From Selaginella tamariscina (taxonomy: Eukaryota > Streptophyta > Lycopodiopsida > Selaginellales > Selaginellaceae): 64,000 bases of DNA. The position numbers were made by a program, and so were the translations under genes. Each line of letters opens with the position of its first letter. Positions within the stretch are counted from its first letter, which is position 1. The notes beneath the pieces were generated by a model. The model had not been told where the DNA came from. It made no database searches and worked only from the letters and a program-made list of their open reading frames with translations. The stretch covers positions 1,683,945-1,747,944 of the forward strand of contig PUQB01000004.1 in the NCBI GenBank assembly GCA_003024785.1, written 5' to 3'. Positions 35,701-64,000 of this stretch are shown one piece after another.

Positions 35701-35998
35701 CCTTAAAGTCGTGGTACTTGGATGGTAGAGAAGAAGGAGGAGAAGGAGAAGGAGTAGGCGAAGAAGAAGGAGTAGGCGAAGAAGAAGGAGTAGGCGAAGG
35801 AGATTGAAAAACAGGAGAGTCAGACACAGGAAAGGTAGAAGAGGACGTAGGAGTTACTTGAAAGGCAAAAAGGTGGAAAGGAGCAGGATCAGTGGTAAGT
35901 TCATGCATGGTAGTGGTAAGAACTCGGAGAGGAGCAGGAGGGAGTTGTGACTGAAAAAGAGGAAGGATCTTGGGGGTGGAACAGAGGAAGAGTAACAA
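32753..35998 (-). CDS. chromovirus B pol polyprotein frame (fossil part)
   Basis: An open frame of 1081 residues. Reverse transcriptase covers roughly residues 130-310, with the VDYRGLN and YLDD motifs (YLDD near 280-283). RNase H begins near residue 425 with VEADASDFAIGSVLSQ. Integrase has the HHCC zinc region (GHFGVAKT to CDTCNRSK) and the DDE core (MDFLTDLPPS, VSDRGPQF). The C-terminal 65 residues are a chromodomain (EYEVAAILDSR, LVDWKGY, TWEP), which directs such elements to particular chromatin in studied relatives. The first hundred residues are Pro/Ser-rich. Its 5' end overlaps the protease frame, as in related elements. Looks whole. Confidence 0.9.
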   Translation of the reverse strand: MLLFLCSTPKILPLFQSQLPPAPLRVLTTTMHELTTDPAPFHLFAFQVTPTSSSTFPVSDSPVFQSPSPTPSSSPTPSSSPTPSPSPPSSLPSKYHDFKDVFDKHKATVLPVHRSYDCPIDLAEGKTPPFGPIYALSPTELEVLRQYIEDNLASGFIRHSKSPAGAPIFFVKKKDGSLRLVVDYRGLNQATIRNRYPLPLIPELLDRLRGAKVFTKIDLRGAYNLVRIRPGDEWKTAFRTRYGHFEYTVMPFGLTNAPAVFQHMVNDIFRDFLDQFVVIYLDDILIFSKDQAAHDKHVRLVLQRLREHGLYAKLEKCFFDRDSVEFLGYIVSPAGVSMDMHKVKTIVEWERPKSVRDVQCFLGFANFYRRFIQDFSKRVLPLTELTKRTEVFSWSDKAEHAFTTLKDTFTTAPILAHPDPSRPFFVEADASDFAIGSVLSQVGEDKLLHPVAFHSRKFLSAEINYEIHDKELKAIVDSFEEWRHFLEGAAHPVQVLTDHKNLEYFQTARVLSRRQARWAEFLSRFDFVIVYRPGFRNGKADALSRRSYLAPSPGDPAFDCQRQVLLGPDRFRLAALQVHQAPADSTLLQDVRSQLDTDDLAKNVFSHIHPDVASSSSSSSRPDYNLFTIQDGLLYREGLLYVPVGVCRTRVVQDCHDTPATGHFGVAKTVELVTRNYWWPGLRGFVERFVRSCDTCNRSKMPHHAPSGLLRPLPVPSAPWRSISMDFLTDLPPSRGFDAVLVVVDRFTKQAHFLPCNKTATGQTTAELVIREVFRHHGLPESIVSDRGPQFMSKFWRELLRSLQVKADLSSGYHPQTDGQSERTIQTLEQYLRCFISYQQDNWLDLLPMAEFAYNNSIHASTGQTPFFALTGHHPRFDFASPASPSSAPAVQDRLQHLRQVQDDLRVHLQQAQERYKHHADAHRQPAPAYKVGDLVWLLRRHIRTNRPSSKLDFQRLGPYRIVAEVNPVAFRLELPSTVKLHPVFHTSLLEPYHPSSLPGRASSPPPPVVIAGEPEYEVAAILDSRLHRRQLQYLVDWKGYLPTDRTWEPASNLLHASSKVAAFHRHYPAKPGPTTRGTRP

Positions 35999-37770
35999 AA
36001 GGAGGCAGGATTGGGAGAAACCTGTGTGGATGTTGACGAGTGTACAGGATTGGAAGAATCCTGTACAGAAGTCCGTGGTTGCACAGGAGTGAGGGAGGCC
36101 TGTGAGTGTGCTGACGAACCAACAGGAGGTGGATCCTGTTGAGGAGGAACCTTCGACACTGATACAGGATTGGAAGAACCCTGTACAGGAATCCGCAAAC
36201 TTACAGGAGTGGAGAGAACCTGCGGATGTGCTGAGGAACTGATATGAGGTGAATCCTGTCGAGGAAGAGTCTTCAACAATGGTACAGGAACAGGCACGGT
36301 CAATCCTGTAGCTTGTACTGCCTCAGACACCAAGGATGTATCCTGCACGCAGGAAGGTACAGGATTGATCCTGGCTGCTGGAGAGGAAAACGTGAGCGTC
36401 CTAGACCTCCAGTCGATCTGCGGGTTTGCAACAACGAACCATGGCATGCCAAAAATGATGGGAGTCGACCGAGTCTTGATCAAGTTGAAGGAAATTGAAC
36501 AGTTGAATGCGCCATGACTGCAAGAGAGAGGTGTGGTAGCGTGGGTAACTGCGCCAGAAGCAATCAAACGACCATCGGCCACCTCTACAGGAATTGCACG
36601 CTTCAACTTCACCACCGGAATGCCATGCTGAGCTGCAAAAGTGTCATCCATGAAACATGCATTCGCACCAGTGTCTAACAGGGCAAACTCCTTGAGCTCT
36701 CGATTATTGAGGCGAATGTGTACAGGAAACTTGAGTGATGGAATGATATGAGCAGCACCAATGGAGCCTGCACCTACGTCCAATTTCGCGGCTCCTAGAC
36801 GAAGTGGACATTGAAGTTTTCCGACTGAACTTCAGCTTCGGCTTCACGCGTCTTGAACGTTCTGGCTTTATTAGGACATTCCGCCACCTTGTGTCCTGCT
36901 GCACCACAATACAAGCATAGGTTCTCATCCCGACGACGTTGCTTCTCAGCAGTTGAAAGTGGGCCACGCTTGGATTTGTTAACCTCCATAGGAACTGCTC
37001 CAGAAGGTGTCGTAGGAACATGTGCTACGGCTACAGGATTCGTTGGCAGGAACTGCTGACGGAATTTTTCCTGACGGCGCTCGAACAAACGGTTGTCGCA
37101 GCGAACGGCCTGTTGCATGATCTCCGCTAACGTTTGAGCATCCGGTAATGTAAGGAGAAGGTCCTTCACATCATCCCTCAGCCCAAAACGAAGTGTTCGA
37201 TCAACGCAGTCTCGTCCCATGGAATGTTTGTGCACAATTGCTGGAATTCAGATGCATAAACTGAAGCTGGTCTGGATCTTGTGTGAGCCTTCGTAACTTG
37301 GTGCATGCAGAACGGTACTTATCAGGATCTCCAAAACAGGCTTCAAAGGCAGCCACGAAACCTTCAAAGTCCTCCATCAATGGGTCGTCACGCTCCAGCA
37401 AGGGAGCAACCCAAGCTCGTGGAGATCCACTTAGTAAGGATGCCAAAAGGCCAACCTTTTTGTGCATCCGTCGAGTAGCGGCGTGGTTGCATGCGGATCA
37501 AGAGCCGAATCTGATTCAGGAAACCTTGGAAATCGGCACGGTTGCCACTGAACTTCTCTGGCATGCTGATCTTCGGCTCCGGAGAAAAGTTCGATGAAGA
37601 AGGAACCACAGATGCCTGAGAGAGAGCCTGCGCAGCAGCCTTGGAGGAGCATCAGCAGCTGCATGTGCCGCATGGGTGGAGCCTTGCAAATCGGTGACCA
37701 CTTGGCGCAAAGTGGCCAGCTCATGGAGCAACATTTGGTGCTCGTGTTGGAAGTGCTCAAAATCAGCCAT
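35854..37770 (-). pseudogene. chromovirus B gag and protease region (fossil part, broken)
   Basis: On the minus strand it starts with a coiled, acidic gag-like region. It continues with the retrotransposon gag fold (EKFSGNRADFQGFLNQIR), a zinc knuckle CLYCGAAGHKVAEC and an aspartic protease with LLDTGANACFMDD. Gag is spread over several frames with about three breaks, so this copy is unlikely to act alone. Confidence 0.8.
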
Positions 37771-44700: not shown

Positions 44701-45746
44701 TATGTGCGTAGCTGTGTGTGGTGCCAAGCTCGCAATATTCCCCATGTGCTTCAGAAGGATGGTTGGAGTCAATTGTAGTTTCTCGTTTGTTTGAGTTGGT
44801 GCATTGATTTTGATGGGACCTTTTCCACGGTCAATTTGTTGGCAACAAGTACGTTATTATTGCTTTTGATTACCTAACTTGTTGGGTAGAAGTTGGTGCT
44901 CTTGCTAATGCGACTGCTTCTGTTGTTGGTCAGTTTCTCCTTAATCGGGTTGTGTTTCAGCATTCTTGTTCAGAGCGATTCTCTCGGATAATGGTCCTGC
45001 ATTTATGGCTGAGGCATTTCATGTTTTGATGTCTCGACTAGGGATACGCCCACTTTTTCAAGTGCTTATCATCCTCAGACAAATTGTTTGGTGGAATGGC
45101 TTGTCAGAACCTTCAAGGGATGATCGCAAAGTATGTAAACTTTCAACATTCAGATTGGGATGGTTATCTACTGTCTCTCTAATATGCTTATGTCACTGGA
45201 GTACAAAGTTCATTGGTACTTCCCCATATAAGTCTTGTATGGTCATGACCCGATGTTGCCAATGGAGTTGGGTTTGCCTTCTAGGTTATCACCAGTTGCT
45301 TATGCTAGGTATGGATCGGTATCTGATGAGCATTCTTCCATTGGTTCATGCGGAGTCAGCAGAACACTTGGGCCGCATACAAGTAGGACAACAACAACGG
45401 TACAACTCGCACCATTGTTCTCCTACGGAGTACAAGGTTGATGAACTGGTGTTGGTTTGTTTTCCCAAGCTTACGGTACGTGGTTTAGTTAAGAGTCTCC
45501 TTTCCTTAGTGGAAAGGACCGTATTGAGTGCTACGGCAAGTAGGGCCACAGGTTTATGAGGTTCGGCATGACATTCAACCCGATCCTCCAGATATTGTAC
45601 ACGTGCAATGATTGAAGCATTTTGTGCAACGGGAACAAGTTGTGCTACTTACAAATCCACCAATACCTCCCTGATGTTTCCTCCAGATCCGGGCTCATCT
45701 ACAAGAGAACCCTAACCAACTTACATCCTTCCGAGAGGAGGGATGA
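41735..45746 (+). pseudogene. internal region of element C (fossil, broken)
   Basis: Carries Gypsy gag-, RNase H- and integrase-like stretches in changing frames, with the reverse transcriptase core not recognisable. Many breaks. Listed only as the coding remnant of element C. Confidence 0.75.
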
Positions 45747-45907: not shown

Positions 45908-47428
45908 AGCACTACACATTTGATTGATTTATACACTTATAATTTTTTAGAAATTATAATGTAGATTTATACCTCGGATTAATTTTATAAGAAATTAATT
46001 AGAAAGTTTGAAACTCTATATCAATATGATAGCTATATATACATAGAATTAGCATTGAATATAATTTTGATCATTAATATTTTACATGAAAGTGCGAACA
46101 TACAAAGCACTTCTTATTATCGGTGCAAAGGACTAAGTGTTTACATTTATAAAAGTAAATTATATATATCATCATCTTGAAATAAAAATCCAATAATTAA
46201 AGTGAAATTTAAGAATATTATTTATACGGTTATTTATTTATTTATTTATTTATTATCATTATTCATGTGGACGTATGGTTACACATAGAAAACACACACA
46301 AATGAATAGATAGATACAGATTCATATTCGTGTCTCTATCTTTAAGTATAGGTAAAAATAGATTAAAATTCTTATATACCACATATAGTATCCCACATAT
46401 GTTATAGCGTGCGTGGTATGCAATATCAATGAAGCATAAAAACGCAGTAACACAATCATGCCTTACATCCGTATGAATGAATCATTTCAAGTATTAATAG
46501 TACTGTAATGATGACATTGACTATATTTTATTTTGTATTTTCTTGTAATAAATATTATTTGATTTAAGAATGTCTAAATTAATAACAATGTGTATTCTTT
46601 CACCCTAAAGAGAAATAATAAACCTTCCTAATTTAATAATAATTAATTAATAGCCTAATTAAATTTAGTTTATTAATCCAATTATAAACCCATGTAATTA
46701 ATAACGTCTAATTTAATATTGTGGAAAGAAAGAAAAGATGGTCAAAACTCGCTTTAACCATCACAACCTAGTCCACATCTCATCAAATGAACCCTCGCCA
46801 GTTTTTCTCGTCTTGGCTTGCAATTGCTTTTCCATATTTGCCACATGCTCCTTATATGTAGCTAACTCTTTCTACTTCTCTGCTACGAACATCTGGACTT
46901 ATGTCGTTGTGCCCAAGAGGTTCCACATTAATTCTAGATTCAGCTCTATACATGATGTGCTAGGACAACCCAAATCTAGTTGATCCTACTATGGACTTTG
47001 TGGATTCAGCATGTCCTCCTCGTTAGGAGCTATTGAACCCAAGCAAACATGTGAATCCATTCCATAAAGTATCTCACTCACATCTAGTTGAGCTAGTTTA
47101 TCTTCATCATCTAGGTTGTAAGACACCTCCATACCTTCCATGTTAGAGCTACATCGCCATTTATACATGTTGTGCTAGGAGTGTCCTTCCTCCCATTAGG
47201 ATGACTGAACCCAAGCAAACACCCAATCCATTCCATGAAATATCTCACTTGCATCTTGGTGAGCTGGTTCATCTTCACCATCTGGGTTATAAAACACTCA
47301 TTCTACACGATGTGCTAGGGCCACCCAAATCTAGTTGAGCATATGCATGTGGATTCAGCATGTCCGCCTTGAGCCTTCCTCAATAGGTTTTCTCATCGCC
47401 ATTACATGCAGGACCTCATAACTGCAAG
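45908..47428. other. intergenic, partly repeated
   Basis: AT-rich up to about 46730. From 46740 to 47400 lies a balanced-composition segment with a diverged duplication. GAACCCAAGCAAACATG near 47035 recurs near 47207, and a phrase with ATGTGCTAGG...CCCAAATCTAGTTGA near 46955 recurs near 47302. No gene recognised. Confidence 0.55.
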
Positions 47429-47456
47429 AATGCACGTTGTAACTAAAGTGGGCATG
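47429..47456 (+). repeat. left terminal inverted repeat
   Basis: 28 bases, paired with 62492-62519, with two mismatches (positions 7 and 20). The similarity stops sharply on the outer side. Confidence 0.65.
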
Positions 47457-47717
47457 ATACGTGAAAATGGGAATATAAAATAAATTACTAATTAATACTT
47501 AAGTTTTAATTATTAATTAATCATTTAATTAATATGTAATTAAGCCTTAAATATTAATTAATTAATTAATTAATCCTTCAATAACCTTACTTAGTAAGGA
47601 ATATTCCTAAAATATCTTAGAATATTCATATTATTCTAAAAATAGTTTACAATAATGAAGAAATACTATCAAACATAATTACAAATGAAATCATTTTCTT
47701 ATCAACATGTTAATTTT

Positions 47718-48893
47718 TTATAAATACTTTCTTTCTATCATACAAAGAAATCTTTTCATTTTGTCTAAATCATCACTCTCCGGATTAATCAAATCATTTT
47801 GGTCAATATCTTGATGTTGTTGCCACCACTTAACACTCTCACGAATGCAATTGGGAGTTGCCATCCTTGTTAATACATAAGATGTGATAAGAGAAGGTCT
47901 GCATAAAGGCTCATCTAAAAACTGACGTTCCTTAAGAATAATATTATAAAGCGCCCGGTTGCTATCCTTCATTTTATAAAATTCAATATCACGAGAAAGA
48001 AAAGCTTCAGGAAATGTATGATACGGTGGATACTGCTCACAAAAATTTTCGAGATTCTTCTTTCTGAGGCACGTATCCAAGTAGTTCACTAGCTCATCCA
48101 TGATATCGGTATCAGAATATGGATCGAAAGTGATTGGATGAATACAAGCAATGTTTTGGTTGAGCATAGCCTTCTGAGGAGAGTCGTCTACTACTAAGAT
48201 ATGTGCATTCTTCGTTATCCTTAAGCGACTGATCTCCCCATGAGTCCCAATTATTCTTTCATTCTTGAAGAAGTATGGCTTGCTTTCCTTTCTTATATTG
48301 TGAAATTCGAGAGGTTTATGACACATTCGCTGGTCAAAAATCCAATCTTTACGAATCACCTCTTCTGCAACACTACAATGTTTCTTAAGTAAACTCAACA
48401 GCGGTGTTAAGTTATGAATCTGCATGCATGACCAAATCCCCACAAGCGCACCCATCTCCTTAAGCTTTTGAAAGAGACGATCCAACCCTGGACGAAAAAT
48501 AATATCATATCGAAATTTACCATGACAAGGAATGAAATCTCCTTGTTTGATTTCTGTTTTTCTATCCTGGGGCCTTTGTCGATGAAGCAGAACACCATTG
48601 ACATCCAACAACACAATATGGCCATGAGTAACATGAGATAGCGTTGCCTCTTGAATACTTTGCAAATCACTTGTTTGCTCCCTTTCACATTTATCCGTTG
48701 CCACTATTTCGTTGCCTATCCCTTCATCATTTAATTGTACATCATCCTTACAAGATTCAGATATTGCATGCGCTGAAGAAATTGATTTCGGAACTGAAGC
48801 CAATAAAAATGATGATGCAAAAACTGAAGTGGCCCCCATGGTAACGATGTTTTGAGCTGCATTATTATCCATTTCCTGCATGAACTCTGTCAT
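47718..48893 (-). CDS. FCP1/NIF-like HAD phosphatase
   Basis: An open frame that could start at ATG 48893 (MTEFMQEMDN). The frame is open a little further upstream without an ATG. Counting from 48908, the HAD motif I is LLDVNGVLL near residues 100-108 (DxNG instead of the usual DxDG), motif II is GIWSCM near 157-162, and motif III is VVDDSPQKAM near 239-248. That order and spacing is the FCP1/small-CTD-phosphatase fold (NIF domain), whose members remove phosphate from Ser/Thr of proteins such as the RNA polymerase II tail. Plant relatives with a DVNG form of motif I exist. Replacement of the second Asp, the general acid/base, by Asn could weaken catalysis. The last 110 residues are unlike the common domain. 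It lies 270 bases downstream of the ParB-like gene on the same strand. Confidence 0.75.
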   Translation of the reverse strand: MTEFMQEMDNNAAQNIVTMGATSVFASSFLLASVPKSISSAHAISESCKDDVQLNDEGIGNEIVATDKCEREQTSDLQSIQEATLSHVTHGHIVLLDVNGVLLHRQRPQDRKTEIKQGDFIPCHGKFRYDIIFRPGLDRLFQKLKEMGALVGIWSCMQIHNLTPLLSLLKKHCSVAEEVIRKDWIFDQRMCHKPLEFHNIRKESKPYFFKNERIIGTHGEISRLRITKNAHILVVDDSPQKAMLNQNIACIHPITFDPYSDTDIMDELVNYLDTCLRKKNLENFCEQYPPYHTFPEAFLSRDIEFYKMKDSNRALYNIILKERQFLDEPLCRPSLITSYVLTRMATPNCIRESVKWWQQHQDIDQNDLINPESDDLDKMKRFLCMIERKYL

Positions 48894-49165
48894 TCTGACA
48901 TGTGGCACAAGAAATTGTCGCCAAACCCCTCTCTTACCTCATGGCAATGCTGAAAATCCATGTTCTCAATTATTTCATTACATCTGCAAAATGATAATTA
49001 GCTGACCTTAAAATTATCAAGGTATATTATTTACCTTGTTAATGTGTGACCCATGTTTGAACTAAAAGCTTCATTAATCCTTGAGAATTTATTTTCTGTA
49101 CAAATATAAAAGAAATATACAAAAATGCCTTATGTTACACTCATTTACAACTATTCATCACTCTA

Positions 49166-52100
49166 TCAATTCATTATCAATTCTTCTTCGCTATTACCTT
49201 CTGAATGAGGCGAAGAAGGTCTAAGCCGCTTGTGAGATGGTTCAAGATCTTCTGCATCTTCTATTGATGTTTCCATGGGTCCTGGAGTGTGCGAATGTTC
49301 TGTACTCCTCGAGATAACTTCCGGTCTAATATCTGATTGATGTTCGTTCTCAGACTCCGAGATTGAACCAGATTCACCTTCAGAGCTATCGCACTTATCT
49401 GGAGGGAACTTTCTCAAATACGCCTTTATGGATTCGTTGGGGTACTCAGTTGAAGACCCAATCTATCCACTTGTTCAGGTCCTCAACCATGGTCTTATCC
49501 TTCTCAACGGCAAACACACATGTATGCCGAAGGTAACACTCCTTCAAGACGGACCCCCTAGTGCAGTAGTCAAAAACCCACGCATCACTGTGAGGACCCC
49601 TGATCAAGTTGACGATGCTCCGTGCCGCTTGACTTGTAATGTTTGGATAACGTACATTGCCGAATACGTCACTCATACCTATCGGTGTATCGGATGGAGG
49701 TTCAGGGCCGTTGGAGTGCAAACAGATGCCTGGCCAGTCATTTGGAAGCTTGAAATTGTTTGGCGCATTCCTAACAACCAAGTGAACAACAGTATCAATG
49801 CACTTGGGATTAGCATCGTTCATATAAAATCCTGTCCAACGATGTCTATTCTTCTTGGCGAAGGCGAAGGCAAAAGTATCGGTGACATGAGCAAGAATCA
49901 AGAAATAAATACCTGAAAAAGTAGGTATCAGTGAAGAGCGCAAGCATGAATTCAATAATAAATACCTTCTATGTATATGCTTGCACGGCTAAGTTTCTCC
50001 ACCAGATCCTCTAGTGCCCTATCTGTCGAAAGATTTTTTGACACCCGCCGATCCATCACGAACAATTGAAACGGTTTCCTACAAGCAGTGATGTTACCCC
50101 ATAAAGTCTCCGAATCTAACAACAAACATCTGTAGGGCTTGTCGTGATTCGTAGCATCCTCCTTTATAAGGTTCAATTCGGTTCTCCGCTGCTGAAGGAC
50201 TGCCATAAGAGAAGGCGTCATCCCAATGTTCTCCTTTTTGGCGTTGGCGTGCAATAGATTCTTGCCTAGATCTTCCGATTGGTTCACCCATTCGACAAGC
50301 ATATCATCGTTCGTCACATGCAAATATTTGCTAACCTCTTCATATGTTGAAGTCGAGGTCCAACCCAGTTTGTGGCAGTGTATTCCCAACCACTCCTTGA
50401 AATGCCTGACCGTCTTCAACTCCATTGCCTTGAGATGAAAAGGAGAGGTTGGGCTGCTGTTATTAATTTGTAGTTTGCCATCGATCACCAAATCAGCCAA
50501 GACTTCCATCTCCTCCATCGTTGTTCCATTTAAAGGCTTCAACCATGTGAGCTTGAAATCGTTGTCTACATCCTTTGTAGATTGAACAGACTTAGCCTTC
50601 GGCGTCTTACTGGGTTTCTTTGCAGACTTTTCTGAGGGCTCCCCTTCACTTGTCTGCTTCTTCTTCAGTGTTCCTTTTGAAAAGGATTCCATAATCCCCA
50701 ACCATTTGGCAAAGATCCTATCTTCGGGGCAAGAAATCAACATCATCAGAAATGATGTTTCCTTCCCGCCCACCTGGGCAAAATCAACTGCTGCAATTTC
50801 TTCAACTCTCTGAGGAAAAAGACAGATTAATATACCGGCGAGATAAATCCCGCCCAAACAATTTGCTTACCCGGTATTCCGCAGATTGTGTATTCCCTGC
50901 GGTAGCTCTTTGTGGTCGCTGAAGAGATTCCCACACGGCTCGCGTGTGTTTAAACTTCTCCCATATTTTGCTGTTGTAGTGGTTGGTGTCGGCAGCGTCC
51001 CATTCCGCCGATAACTTATGGTACTGCTCGATTGTGAGATTCGGCTTAGCTAAAAACGCCGATCTTTTTGTCAGCTTCTCACGGGTATGCTCGGAAAGTT
51101 TTGTTGCCATCGTTCCTTTGTTGTGTTCATCGAGAAGTCGTTGGGCTGCCGTTATTGTGTGCTGGCCACTAATGATGTAGTACTTGATAGATCTTTTATT
51201 CTCCGTCTGAATCTTCATGAGTTGTTCTGGTGTTGTGATCCAGACTTTGTCAGCACCCTTCTTCTTTCATAGTATGGACACAAAACAGCATTATGTGGAA
51301 CGGTATAAGAATTGTCGTCCTTCATCTTCTCCATGAGCTCAGCTACACGTTCCTGGTTGAGTGGCCTGTAATTGAAGTTTGGGTTGACGCTGCAATATTT
51401 AACCCTACAAGGATAAATCTTATCATCCAACATCATTTCCTTGTGACTTATTGCAGCATGAGATGCCACAGGTGCAGCTGACAAAACGATTGATGATTTT
51501 CTTTTGCGATCCGAATCAACATGTGTGATCCCCGACTGCAGCTGTTCTAGTGTTCTCGGCACACTCTTCCAGCTCCCGAAGCTTCCTAAGCAAATTGAAC
51601 GTGATCTGTAGAGAACCTGAGACCGAGCCACCTTCTCAATCTCCCTTATGATGTCGCTGTGTTCTTCTTCAATGTAAGAGGGAAGATTGCTCCACTTGCT
51701 GATTTTCTGTATTGTGAAGCAATATCTCCTGACAATACACCTACTCGATGAGTCTGAAGATCTTCGAAGTAGACATCCAGATGGATCCCCTCCATAGATG
51801 GGCTTTCGTTGAGTTGAAGAAGAACTCCAAGGTCAACATCATTAGTGAACACGTGAACGTCATTATCCACAAGTCGACAAAACCACCCGAGATTAATGTT
51901 GTAACTGACGACCTCTGGATCCGAGAACGTGACATTGGATGGAACAAGGCATATCTGTCGAGCATCGTCCAATCTGGGTTCGCAGCCTGCTTTCGGGTGC
52001 TTGACTAGCGAATCTACTTTCCATTGTTTTGCTTGTCCATGAGATGTGACAGAGGTTAATTTGACAGCAACCATGGTTGCTCCAATGCGCTTCCCATTTA

Positions 52101-52270
52101 TCTTAAAATATGGCCAAGTTGATTCCAGAATCCCCCTGCCCATCTCTTCTCCTGCTCTTGTCTTTAATGTCACTTCAATTCCACATCTGAATACAAAAAT
52201 GATTAGTTCAAGTATCCGAGTATAACAGATTTTATTTTAATTCTTACCCAGAATTTGACGACGACTCCAT
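49166..52270 (-). CDS. ParB-like and DNA-methyltransferase-like fusion protein
   Basis: About 950 residues over four exons with very short introns (52187-52247, 50810-50870, 49913-49965, all GT-AG). The start at ATG 52270 (MESSSNSG) is tentative; a spliced leader exon is possible. The N-terminal 170 residues are unknown. Next comes a ParB/sulfiredoxin-type fold: PLNQERVAELMEKMK followed by KYYIISGQHTITAAQRLL. A helical region with a Lys/Ser-rich linker follows. The C-terminal part resembles a beta-class N4/N6 DNA methyltransferase: YRCLLLDSETLW where DPPY would be, and WVFDYCTRGSVLKEC then VFAVEKD where the FxGxGT SAM site and acidic residue would be. Both catalytic motifs are degenerate, so activity is doubtful. 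The acidic tail has a KRLRP nuclear-type signal. ParB-methyltransferase fusions are known in phages and bacteria. The frame slips by one base in about three places, at least one a C run. Confidence 0.55.
50837..50854. repeat. variant palindrome inside an intron
   Basis: GGCGAGATAAATCCCGCC differs in two positions from the 18-bp palindrome of the nearby arrays. It takes up nearly a third of the 61-bp intron 50810-50870 of the ParB-like gene. Confidence 0.8.
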
Positions 52271-52600
52271 ACTAATGACTCGATCTCCTTGTTTGATCAA
52301 ATCGTCCTTCTGCAAAATAATACACTATAAATATAAATTATATAAAAACGCACACACACTTGTATAAACCCGAATATACAAAAATAATACACAGAGAGAA
52401 GTAGACGTAATTAACTGTCCGAAGCTCACATTTGTGTTAGTGCAAAAGAAAGATAACATTTCGTTTTAGAACCACCACAAATGTGAGCTCTGGACAGTTT
52501 TACATAGATTCCTAGCTTTTACTCGAAATATTATGATAAGATGATAAAAGTAAATAAAATGAGATATGCAACTTATATACTAATACACATATATATTCAC
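52271..52600. other. upstream region of the ParB-like gene
   Basis: AT-rich with a CA run. Contains an inverted pair at 52410-52500: TCCGAAGCTCACATTTGTG and CACAAATGTGAGCTCTGGA, so the RNA could fold into a hairpin with a loop of about 35 bases. It lies between the gene and the first palindrome array. Confidence 0.5.
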
Positions 52601-52609
52601 ATGGAAGGT

Positions 52610-54182
52610 GCGGCGGGATTAATCTCGCCACCCCTTCAATGCCTCCTGAAAGAGTGGGCGGGATTAATCTCGCCACCTTTCTGGAGGCCTTGAACGGGAG
52701 TGCGGAATTAATCTTGCCACCCTTCTCGGTCTCAGAGAGAACTGGGCAGGATTTATTTCTCACACCCCTTCAGTGACTCCAGAAAGGAGGCGGGATTAAT
52801 CTCGCCCACCATGTAAGTGATGGTTAAATGAATTTCCCCACCCTTCCCAGTTCTCTCCATTGGTATGTTGAAAACCTTCTACGTCTCAGACAGAAACGTT
52901 TGGGATTGGTCCGACTCACCAATGGAGAAAAAAGGAAGGGTGGCGGGATTCATTCCTCCAACAGGCATTGAAGACTCGGCGGGATTAATCCCGCCGCCCA
53001 GGGCCTTCACTCGGTCCCTATGCGGCGGGATTAATCCCGCCGGACGCCAATTCCCTGCGGAATCGGGCGGGATTAATCCCGCCGCCTAGGCACTTCAGAG
53101 GCCAATGGCGGCGGGATTAATCCCGCCCGATTCCGAGCAGGGAATTGGCGTCCGGCGGGATTAATCCCGCCTCCCAGGCCCTTCACTCGGGCCTTAGTCG
53201 GCGGGATTAATCCCGCCGAACGCCAATGCCCTGTGCGAAATCTTGCGGGATTAATCCCGCCGCCTAGGCCCTTCAGGCAGGCCAATGGCGGCGGGATAAA
53301 TCCCGCCCGATTCCGCGCAGGGCATGCGTACGCGGCGGGATTAATCCCGCCCACCATGTAAGGGATGGTGAAATTAATCCCACCACCCTTCTCGGTTCCC
53401 TCCATTGGTATTTTGTAAACCTTCTCCGTCTCAGACAGAGTTAGTCGGGATTGATTCAACATACCAATGGGGTAATGAAGGTTCGGAGATTAATCTCGCC
53501 ACCGGGTAATGAAGGTTCGGAGGCTAATCCCGCCGCCCTCTCGTAAATCATGCGCTCACACATATATATTGGCTGCGGCATTTTTGAACAGGGATGGGTG
53601 GGGGCGGGATTAATCCCGCCGCCCAGGGAATTCACGCAGGACATGAACGGCGGGATTAATCCCGCCGCCCTCCGCGAAGGGCATGAGCGTGGGGCCGGAT
53701 TAATCCCGCGTTCATGTCCTGCGTGAATTCCCTGGGCGGCGGGATTAATCCCGCCGCTCTACGACAAACCGAAGAGCGGCGGGATTAATCCCGCCGCCCA
53801 TGGCCTGCGTGAGGGGCCTCGGCGGCGGGATTAATCCCGCCGCCCATCCCTGTAAATGCCCTGCGCGGAATCCGGCGGGATTAATCCCGCCCATTAGAAC
53901 CTTCACACAGGCCATTGCCGGCGAGATAAATCCCGCCGCATTCCGCGCAGGGCATGGATGAGCGGCGGGATTAATCCCGCCGCCGAGGCCCCTCACGCAG
54001 GCCATGGGCGGCGGGATTAATCCCGCCGCTCTTCGGTTTGTCGTAGAGCGGCGGGATTAATCCCGCCGCCCATAGCCTGCGTGAAGGGCCTCGGCGGCGG
54101 GATTAATCCCGCCGCCACCCCCTAAGCCGGCGGGGATTAATCCCGCCGCCAGGCTAAAACCTATAGCGGCGGGATTAATCCC
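52610..54182. repeat. palindrome array 1 (GGCGGGATTAATCCCGCC)
   Basis: About 18 perfect copies of the 18-bp palindrome and a dozen variants. Most are 43-46 bases apart start to start (for example near 52978, 53024, 53067, 53110, 53154, 53199). Copies at the left edge (52613-52810) are worn and often end CTCGCC instead of CCCGCC. Several spacers recur in inverted form: 53756-53777 with 54028-54049, and 53620-53648 with 53709-53737. GC-rich in an AT-rich setting. It gives apparent frames repeating GGINPA or AGLIPP on both strands, which are not genes. Lies just upstream of the ParB-like gene. Confidence 0.95.
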
Positions 54183-54194
54183 GCCGCTCGAGGG

Positions 54195-54897
54195 GCTTAG
54201 CGAGATAAAAACACACACATATATATATGTGTGTGTGTATATATATATATATGTATGTATGTATGTATGTATAGGAGTGTACGTGTGTGTGCAAGAGATA
54301 GATAAATAAATAAAATTATACAGTACTGGTACACCTAATATATGTGTGTACATAGGTATATATATGTGTGTATATGTATATCGTGTGTATGCGTGTGAGC
54401 GAAACAAATAAAATCATACAGATAAACAAACACACACACACATATATATATACACAGGAGTGTGCGTGTGTGTGCGAAAGATAAAACTAATAAATAAATA
54501 AAATTATACAGATAAACACACACATATATATGTGTGTATATAGATATATAATCTATAGAGAAAGAGAGAGAGTCTGTGAATATATAAGCATATATATAAA
54601 CTAGTGTTGTATGTATGTATATATGTATATAGGTATATATATATGTGTATATGTATATTGTGTGTATGCGTGTGTGAGCGAAACAAATAAAATCATACAG
54701 ATAAACAAACACACACACACACACATATACATACACAGGAGTGTGCGTGTGTGTGCGAGAGATAAAACTAATAAATAAATAAAATTATACAGAAAAACAC
54801 ACACATATATATATGTGTGTATATAGATATATAACCCATATGAATATATAAGCATATATATAAACTAGTGTTGTATACTATTTGTTAATATGCATTG

Positions 54898-54952
<55 letters not shown>

Positions 54953-55017
54953 GCAGTGCGCGTGTGTGTGGGAGAGATAGATCAATAAAAAAAAATTTAC
55001 AGATACTGGTACACATA

Positions 55018-55080
<63 letters not shown>

Positions 55081-55345
55081 GCAAGATCAATAAAAAAAAA
55101 TTTACAGATACTGGTACACATAATATATGTATGTATATATATATAGGTATGTGTATATGTATATCGTGTGTATGCGTGTGTGAGCGAAACAAATAAAATC
55201 ATACAGATAAACAAACACACACCCACACACATATACATACACAGGAGTGTGCGTGTGTGTGCGAGAGATAAAACTAATAAATAAAATTATACGCACACTC
55301 CTATACATATATACATACATACACACACACACACACAGATCTCAC
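54195..55345. repeat. higher-order microsatellite block
   Basis: TG, TA and CA runs arranged in a larger repeat. The phrase AAACAAATAAAATCATACAG recurs near 54401, 54681 and 55187, each time followed by an ACACAGGAGTGTGCGTG stretch and AAAACTAATAAATAAA. Open frames here are low-complexity artefacts. Confidence 0.85.
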
Positions 55346-56480
55346 CTGTGTGCACAGCCGCCGCCGCCGATTTCACAGCCGCCGCCTCTTGAAACCCTAA
55401 GAATATACCTAAACCCTAAAGGAATTAAATATATATATCAACCCTAATAGAATATTCCTTCTGAGAATATACTTAAACCCTAAAAAGAAAAAATATAGAT
55501 TCGCCCTAAACGAATATTCTTTCATTATATTATTAGCGCGTGCGTGTGCGTGGGTGTATCACATACACCTCAAAAATATAAATCATGCAGGGATTTAACA
55601 TGTGTGTGTCCATGAGAGTGTTAAAGTTTCATGTGTATCAATACATACATACACATTGCATATATTAATACACATAATATATACATACACACGTGTATAC
55701 ACACAGACATACACACATATTACATGGGTTTAGGGTTTAGGGTTTAGGGTTTTGGATTTAGGATGGATCATGCATGGTGTGTATGTATGAGAGAAGAGAG
55801 AGTGTTGAAAAATTATTTTTGTACACATTGCATATATTAGTACACATATATACTTACACATATTATACACAGATATACATACATAGTATATGAGAGAAGA
55901 GAGACAGTACATATTATGGATCATGCATGGTGTGTATTATACACACAGACATACATACATATTAGTACATAATATTAGAGAGACCGAGTACATATTATAG
56001 ATCATGCATGGTGTGTATGTTTGAGAGAAGAGAGACAGTACATATTAACATGGATCATGCATGGTGTGTATGTATGAGAGAAGAAAGTACACATATATAC
56101 ATACAGTACACATATATACATACAGAGTACACATATATACATGCACACGTGTATACACACAGACATACATACATATTACATGAGTAAATTCATTGTGTTA
56201 CATATTAGGGTTTAGGGTTTAGGGTTTAGGGTTTGCTCCCAACAAGCTTAATATAAATATTACACATGTAAATTCAATGTGTTACATACAGTCACACAGA
56301 TTGAGTACATATATCATACATGCGTTGAACATGATGTTTTCAATAAAGAAGCAACCTATTTCTTCAGTTTGGTTTAGGGTTGTGCATGTGTGTGCATATG
56401 TGTTTTTGTAAGTTCTTGTAATGCGTGTGTAAATTTATGATTGTGTTTATATATGTGTGCAAAACAAACATCGAATAATT
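55346..56480. repeat. spacer with telomere-like and GGATCATGCATGGTG repeats
   Basis: GGATCATGCATGGTGTGTAT, or a close form, recurs about four times between 55763 and 56070. Runs of TTTAGGG (three to four units) are at 55729-55752 and 56208-56234, and isolated AAACCCTAA units at 55393-55480. No gene seen. Confidence 0.7.
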
Positions 56481-56500
56481 AAGAAAATAAAATTAATAAA

Positions 56501-56911
56501 CACACTAGGAACATATTTTAAATTATACATAATAATATATGATTTTATCTAATATATAGCCATATATAGTTTTAATAATATATATTAATTTAATATTGAT
56601 AAAAAGGTTTAACATTGAAATATTCTTGAAATAATAAGAAATTAATTGAGAAAATCCCATTAATATATACAAATGTAAATTAAGTACTCAAATAATTAAC
56701 TAAATTAATTATCATAATCATGTTTAATATTGGAATATTCTTGGAATAATAAGAAAATAATAAAGAATATCCCATTAATATAAAGAAGATTAATTACTCA
56801 AGTAATTAAGGAAATGATATTAATATATATATTATTAAAACTATATATGACTATATATTAGATAAAATGATGTATTATTATGTATAATTTAAAATATGTT
56901 CATAGTGTGTA
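56501..56911. repeat. AT-rich foldback (inverted repeat)
   Basis: 56501-56590 and the reverse complement of 56818-56911 are closely alike (both contain AACATATTTTAAATTATACA). They enclose a loop of about 230 bases. A loop segment (ATTAATTTAATATTGATAA... onward) is repeated directly after the right arm, at 56911-57030. A third arm copy lies near 57165-57215. Looks like a foldback or MITE-type family. Confidence 0.75.
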
Positions 56912-57215
56912 TTAATTTAATATTGATAATAAGGTTTAACACATGAATATTCTTGAAATAATAACAAATTAATTGAGAAAATCCCATTAATATATACAAA
57001 TGTAGAATAATTACTGCAATAATTAAGAACAAGACTAATTTAATTATGATAATCAGGTTTAATATTAGAATATTCTTCAAATATTAATAAAATATTAAAG
57101 AATATCCCATTGATACTAGGAAATGAAAACTAAATACTCGAGTAATTAAGAAAATAATAATAATAAACAGACTATGAATATATTTTAAATGATACATAAT
57201 AATATATCAATTTAT

Positions 57216-57835
57216 TTATTGTATAAGTATATATTTATATATTATATATAATATAAATATACTTGAATACTAAGAATGTAGAATATAGTCTAAAATTTCG
57301 TAATATTAAACAGCTTGAATCACTTGAATAACATTAAATGCAATTTTAAAATACTCATTGGAACTGGAGAGTATATATGTCAGAGTGTCGGATATTTGTG
57401 TCAACTCATCTTAAATTTTATTTTCTGTTCTTTTTAAAAAATTTGAATTTCTGACATATGTATTGTCGGTCTGACATGTAAATTTGAAAATGCATTTAAT
57501 TTCCCACTCAAATTCAGATCTGGTTCTTTCTCCGGCAAGGGTTTCTTCATTTCTGTATTTTTCACTCTTTAGATCTTCTTTTTTCTTCATAGTGATCATC
57601 TCAGGAGCGAGATTAAATTGGGTGCTATTCTTTATAGGAAAGCACGGCGCCTTCAGTGCTGTTTACAAGTAAGTATTATAAACAAATTTAAAAATACTTA
57701 TTAAGATTCACTCTCTTACATTCTCTCTTAAAATTACAATTTAGGGGTTTAGAAATGCATTAGGATTATAATATATTCCGTTAGGGATTTATCACGTTTA
57801 AATATCCTTTTAACTTAATATTCTAGGTTAACCGG
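57216..57835. other. AT-rich spacer
   Basis: AT-rich up to 57480. At 57484-57672 a 62-residue frame ends in FSAVYK beside a GTAAGT donor-like site, which could be a leader exon of the downstream gene, but I cannot support it. Confidence 0.4.
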
Positions 57836-58739
57836 GGCGGCGGGATTAATCCGGCCATTTCTTTTTCGCCTCTTTGAAGAAGTGGCGGGATTAATCCCGC
57901 CACCATCTCCCGGGCAATGCTTCTCCGCCACTGAAAAAGAGTGGCGGGATTAATCCCGTCGATAACCTTCTCAACTGATGAAGAGTTACCAGAATTTATT
58001 AGAAAGAGTTGTCGGCGGGATTAATCCCGCCAACCATTTTAGGAGGCAGGGAAGGGGTGGCGGGATTAATCTCGCCACCACTTCCTGTTTTAAAGATTTG
58101 GGGACAGGATTTATCCCGAGATCTCTTTGAAATCATAGTTTTGGAGAGAGTTATGTGCGGGTTTAATCCCGCCACCCATTCCCCGTCGTAAGAATTGTGG
58201 GCGGGATTAATCCCGCCTTGGACTCCCTCCGACAAGGAAGAGCCGGCGGGATTAATCCCGCCGCCTCTTCCTCCGACGAGGAAGGGAGTCCGGCGGGATT
58301 AATCCCGCCGACTCTCTCCGGCGAGGATGAGTCGGCGGGATTAATCCCGCCGGACTCCCTTCCTCGTCGGAGAGAGTCGGCGGGATTAATCCCGCCGGAC
58401 TCCCCCCGAGGAGGAAGAGGCGGCGGGATTAATCCCGCCGGCTCTTCCTTGTCGGAGGGAGTCCAAGGCGGGATTAATCCCGCCGACTCTCTCCGAAGGG
58501 GTTGAGTCGGCGGCGGGATTAATCCCGCCGGACTCCCCCGTCGGAGAGAGGCGGCGGGATTAATCCCGCCGGCTCCCCGGAGGGAGTCGGCGGGATTAAT
58601 CCCGCCGGCTCCCTTGTCGGAGGGAGTCCAAGGCGGGATTAATCCCGCCGACTCTCTCCGAAGGGGTTGAGTCGGCGGCGGGATTAATCCCGCCGACCGT
58701 TCCTCGTCGGAGGGATTCGTGGCGGGATTAATCCCGCCC
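57836..58739. repeat. palindrome array 2 (GGCGGGATTAATCCCGCC)
   Basis: About 15 perfect copies and several variants, mostly 33-48 bases apart. Spacers are variants of a CTCTCTCCGACGAGGAAG phrase. They recur directly (58465-58515 with 58630-58680) and inverted (58218-58245 with 58438-58465). The left edge (57838-58160) holds the worn copies. The array ends 140 bases before the start of the DUF7869 gene. Confidence 0.95.
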
Positions 58740-58880
58740 ATCAGTTGTATTAATCAAACATGAGATATTATCTCTAAACATAATTATGTATTATTGCATA
58801 TGCATATTATTAAGTAACCGTAATTCAGATTTCTTAAAAATATTGCATAAACAGATATCATAAATAATACAATTATTTAT

Positions 58881-61800
58881 GTGCAGGACAATATGTTTAA
58901 TACTGGAGATAAAGTATGTCTTCTTCGGAACAACGAGATAGTTGGCACTGGAACTGTGGAAGTTCGAGATAATAATGCATCATGTCACAATATTTCCCAA
59001 GGATCTTGTGTGTACGTATGGGTGAACACCATTTACAAGCATGTTGAGGTTCTGGGAATGGAATTTGAGGAGGGTTCTCCTGTATTGTGGAATTTGGATG
59101 AAGTCAAGGCTGACACAAAATATGCAGAGTCACAAACAAATAGTAGCACGAGTTTACCAGATGATGGCTTGCCTGCTGTATGGATGAGGTGATTCTCTTT
59201 CTTCGTGAGATTGAAGTCGGAAGAGGCATCATCACAGCTATAAATCCAATGGAAGCAGTGTCAGAAGAGAAACTAGGGTCCGACTTCGTGGGTGTAGTTG
59301 TGACAGAGGTTTCACCTAATGGCACATTGTATCCTGGATCCCTCGTGAGGTGGCGAACATCTGAATTAAGACGGCAAGATGGTTCAACATATTCTGGGTT
59401 GGATTTCAATAATAACAACCCGGAAGAACAACTCATATTTGAAGAGGTTCCTTGCATTGGTCCTATTGTAAGAAAAAGGCGATTCATGGGTTGTAGATCT
59501 TCCCCTGCAAGTTTTCAGCAAGAGGGTAAAGATGATCCTACATCTTCCGAAAGTGTTACGAGCATTTCCACGATTGACTGTTGCAAGAAGAAGTGTTGTC
59601 AGATGGCAGACCGGAATGAAATTACCCAATGTAGACATGTCTTTCGTATGCTCACCCAAAAGCAAAGGCATGAGTTTGTATATGCTGCACTAACTGGGTG
59701 TATTGATGGAATGGCCTCGGACACAGGTTATCAGAGTACATCCATGGTATTTAATAAGGTGGCCATCTGCTTCAAAGCTTGGTACAGTATATACGGGATC
59801 CCAAAGACCACGTTCTACCGTCGGAGGGATGAGTGGCTAGATGGAGCGCGAACCTCAGTTCATGGGAACACTGGCTTGGTCAAAACCCGCTCTCACATCA
59901 TGGCAGCCATAGAGATACTCAAGGCTTTTGTGGAAGCAAATGCAGACAGGATGCCTCACAAATGCCGAACCACAAATGCAGGGGTCAGGGAAAATCTCAA
60001 GGTTTTACCTTCAATCTACACTCAATTGAAACTGTGTGAACATGTGAACAAGTGCCTCAGTTTGATGGGGCTCCAAGCAATCTGCACTGGTACCTTCAAC
60101 AACATATGGAATACTCATTTTAAGGATGTGGAGATTGCAAAACACTCTAGCTTTTCTAAGTGTGACACTTGTACATCATTGAAGGCTGCAGAGGCTTGTG
60201 CAAAAACCTTGGTGGAGATCACTACCATTCAAAGGAAGATGGAGGCCCACATGATTGCACAACAAACTTGCCGGTCTCAGTACTATGCACACCGCATGCT
60301 TTCTGTGTCACGCCCATCAGAGTACCTGTGCTTGATCCATGACAAGATGGATCATTCAAAGACCAGCATTCCAAAGCTCTTTGCAACACCAAAGTGCCTT
60401 GGAAATGTCATGAAACTTCCGATTTCATTGACAGGTGTGCTAACACATGGACACGGTTGTGAGTCATATGGACACTTTTCACTTCCACATTGGTCTAGCG
60501 ACTCCAATTTCACTATTGGGTCGTTAGCCATGTGTTTCAGAAACCTTGAAGCCCACTCACAGACAAGTCCTATCAGTGATCTCAAAGTGAAGAAACAACA
60601 CCTTCAACCTTTACATAATGCTCTCATGAACACGTCTGCACTTGAGGCTACTTGGGAATATGAGAGGCATTGTCAGCAACCTGCACAAAAAACAGATGGC
60701 CCTGTTGAGAGTTCAGGTTCAGTGGAGGGATCTAGCTCAAATAGTGTACATGTGTCCTCAACATCAAATAAGCTTCCTCGTCATTTGCTTTTACAGATGG
60801 ATAATTGTGCAGGCGAGAACAAAAATAGGTAAATCATTTTACTTAAGGGTTTCTCAAGCTCATACTTACTTTTATTTTCTAGATATGTGCTAGCATACTT
60901 GTCAATGCTTGTTGCCAAAGGTGTGTTTGAAACAATCACGCTCAGTTTCCTTATGGTTGGTCACACTCATGAAGATATTGATGCGTTCTTCAGCAAGGTC
61001 TCCAACTCTACAAAAAGGACAAGTGCACTTACCTTACCGCATATGATGAATCTTTTTGAAAATTGCATCTCCAAAAAAAGTTGTGCTTTGCTTGTGACTG
61101 AGGTGCCAGACTTCAAAAAATTTCTCAAGGAGTATATAAAAGAAGGGAGTGATTCTTTAGTTGGTCACCTTGTGCCGCTACAATTCTTTTTCTCCATACG
61201 AGATGGTATACCTATTATGCAGTACAAGTTACGGCCATCAGAGCAGGAGTGGTTACCGAAAGAGGGCTTAATGCTCTTCAAAAGTGGAGAGGATGGAAAG
61301 CCACTTCTCCCAGAAGGACAACCAGACCCTATTCCATTGAGTGCCCAGCTCAAGGAACAAGAGGTTATTATTGATGGCATCAAAAAATATGTGGCATGGG
61401 TTCAAAAATCGATGCCAAAGAATTCTGATAAGGCAACTGGTTACTCAGAACTATATAAGCATGTGGTCAACTATTGGGAGACTGTTGTTCGAGAGTTGGA
61501 AGGGCCTACTGTCACAAGTACAGAATTGCAACACCCTTTCTGGCCTAAAACAAGGTGGCGAGAGGAGATTGAAATGACATCACTGAGCACAGACGACATA
61601 GAAGCCAGTAGTGATGTGGAAGTGCAAACCCCACACTTTGTTGGACAAAGGAACCAAAAACCTAAAGCATACTTTGATTGCTGCAAGGATCTTCAAAAAC
61701 TAATGATGGTTCTCATTACTCCAGATGCGTCATATAATCAGCCTATTTGGATGGGTCAAATTATCGACACACCTGAAGTAATCACAAAAAATAGTATTGT

Positions 61801-62011
61801 TAAGGTTGCATGGTTCAAACCACAAAAAAGGCGACACGAGAAGGAGAGCGAAAGATATAATGGATGCCTAGAGAAAACATGGTCTCCCAATCAAAAAGAC
61901 CCAGCATGTTTTATAAATGTTAAATCCATTCGATATGGGTGGATGTCAAGAAGCGTTGATAAAGTCACGATTAACAAAACTGCAAGGGAATGTATGTTTT
62001 CTGAAGCTTAA
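58881..62011 (+). CDS. DUF7869-type protein, candidate transposase
   Basis: Two exons, 58881-60828 and 60883-62011, with a 54-bp GT-AG intron, total about 1030 residues. A one-base slip near 59180 parts the first 100 residues from the rest. The N-terminal part has two repeats of a small beta module (GDKVCLLRNNEIVGTGTV, then DEVILFLREIEVGRGII). Counting from ATG 59180, a Cys cluster IDCCKKKCCQ lies at 132-141 and a helix-turn-helix-like YGIPKTTFYRRRDEWL at 205-220. A possible zinc pair FSKCDTC is at 325-331. Then come IHDKMDHSKTS (386-396), LLQMDNCAGENKNR (537-550) and, after the intron, VGHTHEDIDAFFS. The spaced D, D and E/D residues look like a DDE/RNase H-type triad. The C-terminal 200 residues are unknown. 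I recall this family in many plants and animals as uncharacterised. Transposase activity is inference. Confidence 0.65.
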
Positions 62012-64000
62012 AGCAATTACAAAATTATAAAATATCATATATTTAATATTCATAATTATTATAAACTCTTTAATAATAGTACCAAATTGTATACTTAACT
62101 ATATAAATTTAAAAAATGATATGGAAGATTGACTATATTATTATAGGATTTTATATATATATTATTACTACTACAAATTTTTAATTAATAATGTTATATT
62201 TAAATATTAATATTTTAATAACAACATCAATATTTATATAATGTACCTCTTATGCTCTTCCTTAATTGTTATATTAGGCAATATATTATATAATTTAATA
62301 CATTCTACTTTTATAATGTTATTAATTTTTGTTCAATGAATGCTATAATTTATTAAAGGGTAGAATACAAAATAGAATATTCTAAAGAATATTCTCTTTT
62401 CAAACATATATTCTAAAGAATATTCCTTTAATATTAGAAAATGCTAATTAAATAGCTAAAATTGCTAATTATTAGGAAATGGGACTATAGCCATGCCCAT
62501 TTTAGTTACAACTTGCATTAGAGACGTGTTATCTAAAGATTGTCAATTAAGGCAGAATTTCCTGGTTTCCACATTGGTTTGTAAGAAAGGTATGTTAGCT
62601 TATATGGTCCCTGAACTAGTCGGTGTTATGAAAGAGTACAAAGTTGGTTGTGAAAGATGAATGGTAGTACTATCACACTTGGTTGCAAATTTGACTGAAT
62701 TTGATTCCTATCGGGAATAATTTATGTTAATAAGACACCAAGTGGATGGCAGTTGGCAGGTTGGCAAGACCTTGTTGTATACATGTGTACAGCCATGCGC
62801 CTCTGTGATCGCCTCTGGCCATATTGATATGTTTACAAAGAACAGGGTTTTACGAATTGTACTCTTGTATCGAAAAAGAGCTTGATTCCAATAAAAGTCT
62901 CATACTTAGTCTGGCTTAGCTATATACTAATGAGAGATAGGTATAGTAGCAGACCCTTATGAAAAGGGGTAATGAGAAGCACCGAGGGATGCAGAGATGT
63001 AAGCTATAATATCATAACATATGGAGATGTGGGACCATTGGAAAATCAAAAGAAATGCGAAGGTGTTTTGGTCAAGCATTTGAGAAGTGCTTGTTGTGTG
63101 TTAGATGATAAAGGTCGTCAACAGCATTTAATATTAAGGAATAAAGCAAGTCTTTATTTCTTGTTAACCAAGGGGCCGGCAACAACACTAACTAGAGGCC
63201 TCCAATATAAATTCTAGTTAAGTAAAGAAATTAACCAGTGTTGTGTGTATCGGGTGACAGACTTTGTAGATGTGCAAAAGGTCTCCAAGTGACTTCATGT
63301 CACAGGTGGTGCCTCCAGCGGCTGGGTTTACGACTCAGTGAACGACGGTTTTGAAGTACTTGGGTTCGCGTAATGTAAGGGGGTAATGAAATTATGTGAA
63401 CTTTTGGCTAACTCCGCATAGAGTGATATGTTAGTTTTGGTTAGTTTTTTCTAACATTATCTAGTCTTGGAGTTGGACGTCAACGAGGACGTTGACATTT
63501 TCAAAGGCGGGGAGTGTGTCATAGTTTTACTATGACTCAACCCTTTACTTTGGACGTTGACTGTTGTTACCTATTGTACTATGTTGATGGACCCTAGATG
63601 TAGTAGGAAATAGGCCTGTTTAGTGCACTTGGGTATCTGGTGATGGTCCGACCGGGTGTCATTAGGTATTTGTAGGAAACTCTAAGCGAAGTTAGAACTT
63701 ACCTTCTAAAAACCCACCCCAATTTTGACGTCCCGAATAGGCTGATTGGTCTTTGCAGATGAGTTCGACGTGTTAAGTAGGGTTAGGAACACCCCTAGGG
63801 TTGACCTAACCCTAGGGTTGCCCTAACCCACGCCCTAAAACCCCACCCCCTTGGGTAGGGTTTAGGGTAGGAGTAAGTGTGAGTTATAGGCTTATATTAT
63901 TAATTTATCTAAGGGGCTAAAATTCAATGTCAGCCCACTTACACATACAGGAAAAGAGGGGGGGGAGGGGCTCCGTCACATAATAAGGTAGAGTATACGT
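62012..64000. other. right end of the candidate element and flanking repeat-like DNA
   Basis: AT-rich to 62480 with GAATATTC motifs, then the right inverted repeat. Beyond it, 62530-62930 has an LTR-like look (AATAAAAGTCTCATACTT near 62890). A frame at 62972-63217 is unrecognised. GGCGGGGAG followed by TGTGTCATAG near 63508-63527 looks like a polypurine tract and LTR start of a retroelement that continues past the window. No gene can be supported. Confidence 0.35.
62492..62519 (-). repeat. right terminal inverted repeat
   Basis: Pairs with 47429-47456 in inverse orientation with two mismatches. It lies 480 bases past the stop of the DUF7869 gene. Confidence 0.65.

Follow-up and report, generated by a model that had tools for sequence, protein, structure and literature searches.

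We describe a 15,089-bp DNA transposon in the genome of Selaginella tamariscina, located at positions 47430 to 62518 of a 64,000-nucleotide stretch of contig PUQB01000004.1 (positions 1683945 to 1747944; C726 in our contig numbering), referred to here as the window. The element has its own terminal inverted repeats and carries an FCP1-like gene, a large accessory gene, a DUF7869 gene, and two arrays of one 18-bp palindrome (GGCGGGATTAATCCCGCC). The original prediction had inferred that this interval was a unit, and its copies elsewhere in the genome show that it is one DNA transposon. On balance, we favor the view that it is an autonomous Sola-like cut-and-paste transposon whose accessory protein would bind the palindrome arrays of the element itself, in an anti-silencing role resembling that of VANC in VANDAL elements. 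The features, in window coordinates, are as follows.

47426 to 47429: left target-site flank AAGA (right flank TAGA at 62519 to 62522, three of four bases identical)
47430 to 47456, + strand: left terminal inverted repeat, starting ATGCACGTTGTAAC
47718 to 48893, - strand: FCP1/NIF-like haloacid dehalogenase (HAD) phosphatase-like gene, 391 amino acids from the first ATG
49166 to 52270, - strand: accessory gene, spliced (predicted exon borders), ca. 975 amino acids, no recognized domain
50837 to 50854: lone palindrome with two mismatches, within an accessory-gene intron (predicted)
52310 to 52317, - strand: predicted splice acceptor (3' splice site) TTTTGCAG, ahead of the accessory ATG
52612 to 54185: palindrome array 1, 29 sites, 18 of them exact
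57669 to 58886, + strand: predicted transposase leader intron, GTAAGTATT ... TTATGTGCAG, holding array 2
57839 to 58738: palindrome array 2, 19 sites, 15 of them exact
58893 to 62011, + strand: DUF7869 transposase gene, interrupted by a 54-bp intron (predicted) at 60829 to 60882; frame change near 59175 in the window copy
60335 to 60361, + strand: conserved IHDKMDHSK, probable first catalytic Asp (homologue alignment)
60785 to 60828, + strand: conserved LLLQMDNCAGENKN(R), probable second catalytic Asp (homologue alignment)
60959 to 60982, + strand: conserved GHTHEDID, probable third catalytic acid (homologue alignment)
62492 to 62518, - strand: right terminal inverted repeat, ending GTTACAACTTGCAT

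The 28-bp inverted repeats originally described at 47429 to 47456 and 62492 to 62519 are present, with 26 of 28 matches; their outermost base pair belongs to the flanks, and the true ends (ATGCAC...TTGCAT) lie 1 bp further in. The genome assembly (300.7 Mb in 1,391 contigs) was searched for both ends, scoring the best 40 of 421 left-end and the best 40 of 389 right-end candidates, and the search returned 40 left-end and 41 right-end matches among the candidates scored, the window's own included. Nine other copies were fetched at full length; these come from the top-scoring matches to the ends of the window copy and hence are not a random sample. Each of them can be aligned to the window element from position 47430 onward to the right; the main matches mostly have 94 to 98% identity, with lower values where arrays and microsatellites occur (minimum of 77%, in C588). 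The copy in C1248 gives a single match of 15,284 columns across 47430 to 62518 at 96.9% identity. The right end at 62518 is reached in eight of the nine, which share both ends and range in size from 14,595 to 15,187 bp; the ninth (C660) has no match past 58362, and ca. 70 bp near 61531 to 61604 are missing from the copy in C960. The unity of the element had been open to two objections, that the repeat might be dispersed without a fixed partner and that the three genes might never occur together elsewhere. Neither holds: the repeat is indeed dispersed, but paired ends 13 to 15 kb apart are found at 12 places besides the window, and each of the eight other complete copies unites the terminal repeats with all three gene regions and the two arrays.

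Identical 4-bp sequences flank seven of these eight copies (TAGA, TAGA, AAGA, AAGA, ATAA, AAAA, and AATA), with the copy in C87 as the exception, and the window copy, with AAGA and TAGA, has an imperfect duplication. Ten further right-end places were sampled, at two of which the partner stretch lay off the contig, so that eight were tested (5 kb each). A left-end partner was found within the 5 kb at four of them, and that stretch contained no left end at the other four. Two of the both-ended places have perfect duplications (ACTA and AATA), and two have imperfect ones (ACTA/TATA and CCTA/CATA). Altogether, a perfect A/T-rich target duplication of 4 bp flanks 9 of the 13 both-ended copies (9 of 12 without the window). 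TGCA was ruled out as a target duplication and assigned to the terminal repeat because ATGCAC was invariant in the 11 plus 4 left ends examined.

The original prediction had suggested a comparison with an allele or relative lacking the insert, and an empty site is provided by C80, where one copy of the element is nested within another (C80:563500-580000), with a 4-bp duplication. There, the outer copy halts and resumes around the inner copy with exactly four shared bases, equivalent to window positions 47675 to 47678. The uninterrupted element thereby serves as the empty site of this insertion. These data show that the element has been mobile in the past. Elsewhere (C102:83747-83890), a 144-bp segment holds two right ends of this element family in head-to-head orientation, a fold-back derivative.

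The two arrays of one palindrome reported originally were recovered with 29 and 19 sites, as was the divergent orientation of the two larger genes with an array before the start of each. The window contains 33 exact occurrences of the palindrome and 49 when up to four mismatches are allowed, all of them within 50837 to 58738, while 20 two-letter-block shuffles of the 16.2-kb region gave a mean of 0.05 sites. Both arrays and the lone intronic site are present in all 10 copies, with array length varying between them; in C660, array 2 is short (6 sites), and there is a separate run of 12 inexact sites. The spacing between sites is 44 to 46 bp in 182 of the 280 intervals shorter than 80 bp. Over 448 sites, positions within the 18 bp carried 1.39 to 2.0 bits of information, and none of the 20 positions to either side exceeded 0.56 bits; the selection of sites by similarity inflates the inside values, not the sharp edge. 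Compared with the window copy, 85 of 7,042 palindrome letters and 708 of 12,991 spacer letters differed, i.e., 4.5-fold less change in the palindromes and less in nine of nine copies, considering only matches of at least 1,000 bp at 90% identity or more, in which misaligned units may inflate the spacer figure. The palindrome letters are thus under constraint and represent a constrained site of the element.

As read from the sequence, array 2 is framed by a good splice donor at 57669 and an acceptor that ends at 58886, directly before the transposase ATG. The 3' splice site predicted ahead of the accessory ATG suggests a similar placement for array 1, within a leader intron of the accessory gene, and no splice donor was found on that side with the patterns tried. 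Array 1 also contains inverted duplications (arms at 53733 to 53852 and 53953 to 54072, 120 bp, 98% complementary) that could form hairpins.

The DUF7869 gene was correctly recognized in the original prediction as present and transposase-like, in agreement with its Pfam match, its conserved acids, and its predicted fold. DUF7869 is the sole Pfam match of the protein (159.6 bits across the joined exons). A total of 104 relatives were found, the best having 52% identity across 88% of the searched part, and 70 of them were taken into the conservation alignment behind the three catalytic motifs listed above. Given these conserved acids and the VIA-align result, which bears on the families in the VIA list and does not exclude those absent from it, DUF7869 is, as judged from residue conservation and modeled fold, a DDE-type transposase with an RNase H fold and three conserved acids. 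Foldseek found no match to the transposase model at an E value of 0.001 or better, the best being Tn5 (8.8e-3), which is weak on its own. Among viral contigs, the transposase profile gave 54 pattern matches, none of them confirmed. The ratio of nonsynonymous to synonymous substitution rates (dN/dS), pooled versus the window copy, was 0.31, indicating purifying selection on the coding region. The N-terminal stretch (window positions 58893 to 59175) showed 17 nonsynonymous versus 1 synonymous differences among copies, an excess that could reflect decay, assembly noise, or positive selection.

The accessory gene had been labeled as a ParB-like/methyltransferase-like fusion, and no test that we made supports this label. 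By eye, there is a ParB-like part at 51135 to 51379, with a YYIISGQHTITAAQRLL and a GQHTITAAQRLL stretch, and a part at ca. 49446 to 50130 with a methyltransferase-like order of motifs. The putative motif IV reads VMDRR (DRR for DPPY) in the window, C1248, C224, and C960, in an alignment made by eye and without hhalign support. Neither the ParB (PF02195) nor the methyltransferase (PF01555) model of Pfam was detected at E values of up to 5 for the joined protein and up to 10 for its two parts, in a range where the HMMER filters discard most matches above 0.1, and neither model was found in the protein with PHROGs. The ParB-like part had only weak matches to an unnamed PHROG (E value of 0.067) and to an unrelated Pfam model (0.095), both taken as chance. 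Whole-database searches for homologues of the accessory protein gave none (E values of up to 0.001; up to 10, 33 candidates). A search of solved structures by sequence yielded nothing for the ParB-like part and two designed repeat proteins, which we discounted, for the other, as we did the one and three matches (E values of 7 to 9) from tblastn against 50,697 phage records. In hhalign, the methyltransferase-like part, the only one compared and as a single sequence, scored 13.6 against a profile of nine beta-class methyltransferases (YhdJ and eight from phages, Ejemplo having been dropped from the ten translated), versus a mean of 13.8 for 200 shuffles, and four held-out true members used as positive controls scored 239 to 339. 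AlphaFold2 (AF2) modeling of one exon alone was useless (predicted local distance difference test [pLDDT] of 32). The ParB/methyltransferase identity therefore failed the profile-library, homologue, and phage tblastn searches and, in the case of the methyltransferase-like part, the hhalign comparison, and it is left as a reading by eye.

The accessory gene is nonetheless under purifying selection, with pooled dN/dS values versus the window copy of 0.08 and 0.13 in the two best-kept stretches and 0.41 in the N-terminal part. Of the two inner frame changes of the window gene, one is absent in nine of the nine other copies and the other in five, and the early stop near 49454 is absent in eight. 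Other copies have frame changes of their own, many of them in C588, and these seem to stem in part from assembly noise and in part from decay. On its sequence, we treat the product as a conserved protein of an unrecognized family.

In order to put the element into perspective, we compared it with known transposons. Sola1 elements generate a 4-bp target duplication, the length found here. CACTA/EnSpm elements end in CACTA...TAGTG and duplicate 3 bp, unlike the ATGCAC...TTGCAT ends and 4-bp duplication of the Selaginella element. The target duplications described for Sola2 are 4 bp and A/T rich (PMC3627910). The closest likeness is to Sola1-1_Ec32 of Ectocarpus, a 21.5-kb Sola1 transposon in which an accessory gene on the opposite strand is reported to be ParB-like plus DNA methyltransferase (PMC12477816). 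Both are giant transposons with terminal inverted repeats, and in both a large accessory gene is encoded on the other strand from the transposase. The element described here differs in having no detectable ParB or methyltransferase domain, in carrying an FCP1-like gene, and in having as its host a land plant, not an alga; its palindrome arrays have no counterpart in the sections of that account considered here. The kind of element is so already known, and the original description of it as undescribed was overstated in that respect. Sola1 has also been recorded in Physcomitrella (PMC9033089). A Physcomitrium DUF7869 protein matches the window transposase at 34% and could be the transposase of that Sola1. 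Proteins of liverwort, mosses, molluscs, and cnidarians share the DUF7869 domain (PF25273), with record names that are only hypothetical or uncharacterized; the Selaginella element adds the ends, the target duplication, and the fold by which the domain is identified as a transposase. Large size and accessory genes are shared as well with the giant KDZ transposons (PMC12730594, PMC12477816), of which Zisupton duplicates 8 bp (PMC12730594) instead of the 4 bp found here.

The arrays find their nearest parallel in VANDAL21 of Arabidopsis. There, VANC binds a short motif that recurs within introns of two genes, VANC21 and VANB21, and in the region upstream of a third, VANA21, and the number of units in these arrays changes by gain and loss from copy to copy (PMC5735166, PMC10398659). 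The two systems share element-specific motif arrays in the introns or upstream of their own genes, turnover of units, and a candidate reader encoded by the element, and they differ in the transposase (DUF7869 here versus Mutator type) and in the motif (a perfect 18-bp palindrome here versus YAGTATTAY). The accessory protein is likened to VANC by arrangement, as a possible analogue. Among the matches listed in a search of the open-licence literature, we found nothing on DUF7869 or on DUF7869 as a transposase with ends, and no description of the palindrome arrays; on ParB with methyltransferase in transposons, the Ectocarpus report alone dealt with the subject, as judged by titles and the openings of abstracts.

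In the mechanism that we propose, the accessory protein, made from the left divergent gene, would bind the palindrome as a dimer or multimer. Loading of both arrays could keep both promoter regions accessible in the face of host silencing, or set their output, in the way that VANC works with the intronic motif arrays of Arabidopsis VANDAL, from unrelated parts. The transposase would act at the terminal repeats and not at the arrays, which lie ca. 5 kb and ca. 4 kb inside the ends. Only tentatively do we extend this to a second, independently built system of sequence-specific anti-silencing or self-licensing among plant transposons. In it, an accessory protein of no recognized family, possibly a worn ParB joined to a catalytically dead methyltransferase, would read an 18-bp palindromic operator set in two arrays at a pitch of ca. 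45 bp before both divergent genes, in convergence with VANC but on a giant DUF7869 (Sola-like) transposon, and this would explain the strong constraint on both the palindrome and the accessory protein. If DUF7869 is right as a transposase, a "domain of unknown function" distributed from mosses to molluscs gains a job, together with ends and a target duplication. The compact natural pair formed by a single conserved protein and an 18-bp palindrome array would suit tests of whether sequence-specific escape from silencing has evolved repeatedly in land-plant transposons, and the arrays, with many copies of varied divergence, make the question of coevolution directly testable.

The palindrome might instead be the binding site of the element's own transposase, for end pairing or autoregulation, with the accessory protein acting otherwise. 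Transposases often bind repeated internal motifs, the TnpA sites of En/Spm are a precedent for transposase-bound repeats, and array 2 lies in the leader of the transposase gene itself. However, besides the distance of the arrays from the ends, the window has no site (up to four mismatches) between either end and the arrays or the intron site, the leftmost 2.0 to 2.2 kb of the window and C1248 copies contain none at up to five mismatches, and one array serves the accessory gene, whose intron holds the lone site in 10 of 10 copies, so that this explanation appears doubtful to us. A host DNA-binding protein or transcription factor could also read the palindrome, the element having amplified a host promoter or enhancer word for its transcription. 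The promoter-side position of the arrays would suit such a reader, and selection on the palindrome letters is silent as to whose protein reads them. We nevertheless consider a host reader unlikely, given that no site (up to four mismatches) lies outside the element in the window and that a density of 49 sites favors a dedicated reader.

Two other explanations concern the nature of the accessory protein and of the arrays. If the protein were an active DNA methyltransferase that also carries a ParB domain and methylates its own element, as proposed for Sola1-1 of Ectocarpus, this would agree with the position of the gene opposite to the transposase, as in Sola1-1_Ec32 (PMC12477816), and with the motif order and GQHTITAAQRLL stretch seen by eye. 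Such an enzyme is quite improbable in view of a protein with no ParB or methyltransferase model in Pfam or PHROGs, no homologue, an hhalign score of its methyltransferase-like part at the level of shuffled sequences, and, in the alignment by eye, DRR in place of DPPY in the window, C1248, C224, and C960. That the arrays are a functionless, selfish satellite-like expansion, with inverted 45-bp units arising from template switching, is the hardest to believe: array length does differ between copies and long inverted duplications are present, but the palindromes change 4.5-fold less than the spacers in nine of nine copies, and conservation has its edge at exactly 18 bp. 

In our reading, the third gene of the element is probably a passenger or a weakly kept accessory gene. 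This FCP1-like gene, already named as such in the original prediction, matches Pfam NIF (PF03031) with 45.7 bits versus a cutoff of 21.8 and by eye reads DVNGV at the position where we take the usual motif to be DxDxT. A frame of 388 to 391 codons is kept in 2 of 10 copies (C80 being represented by its cut outer copy), and the pooled dN/dS versus the window copy is 0.63.

Other observations concern the rest of the assembly and the surroundings of the element. On a long contig, a frame for the RuBisCO large subunit (C1148:647533-648459) has, by eye, many residues resembling unedited C-to-U sites and looks like a lycophyte plastid gene in its unedited form, and a RuBisCO-like match in C908 (137911 to 138201) falls within an apparent open frame of 48,820 codons, perhaps a masked or odd stretch. 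In the window, a weak remnant of an integrase core (rve), under the Pfam cutoff, is found at 44966 to 45559 (+ strand), and frames of a Gypsy-type long terminal repeat (LTR) retrotransposon polyprotein, recognized by eye from the translations, occupy 32753 to 37235 (- strand).

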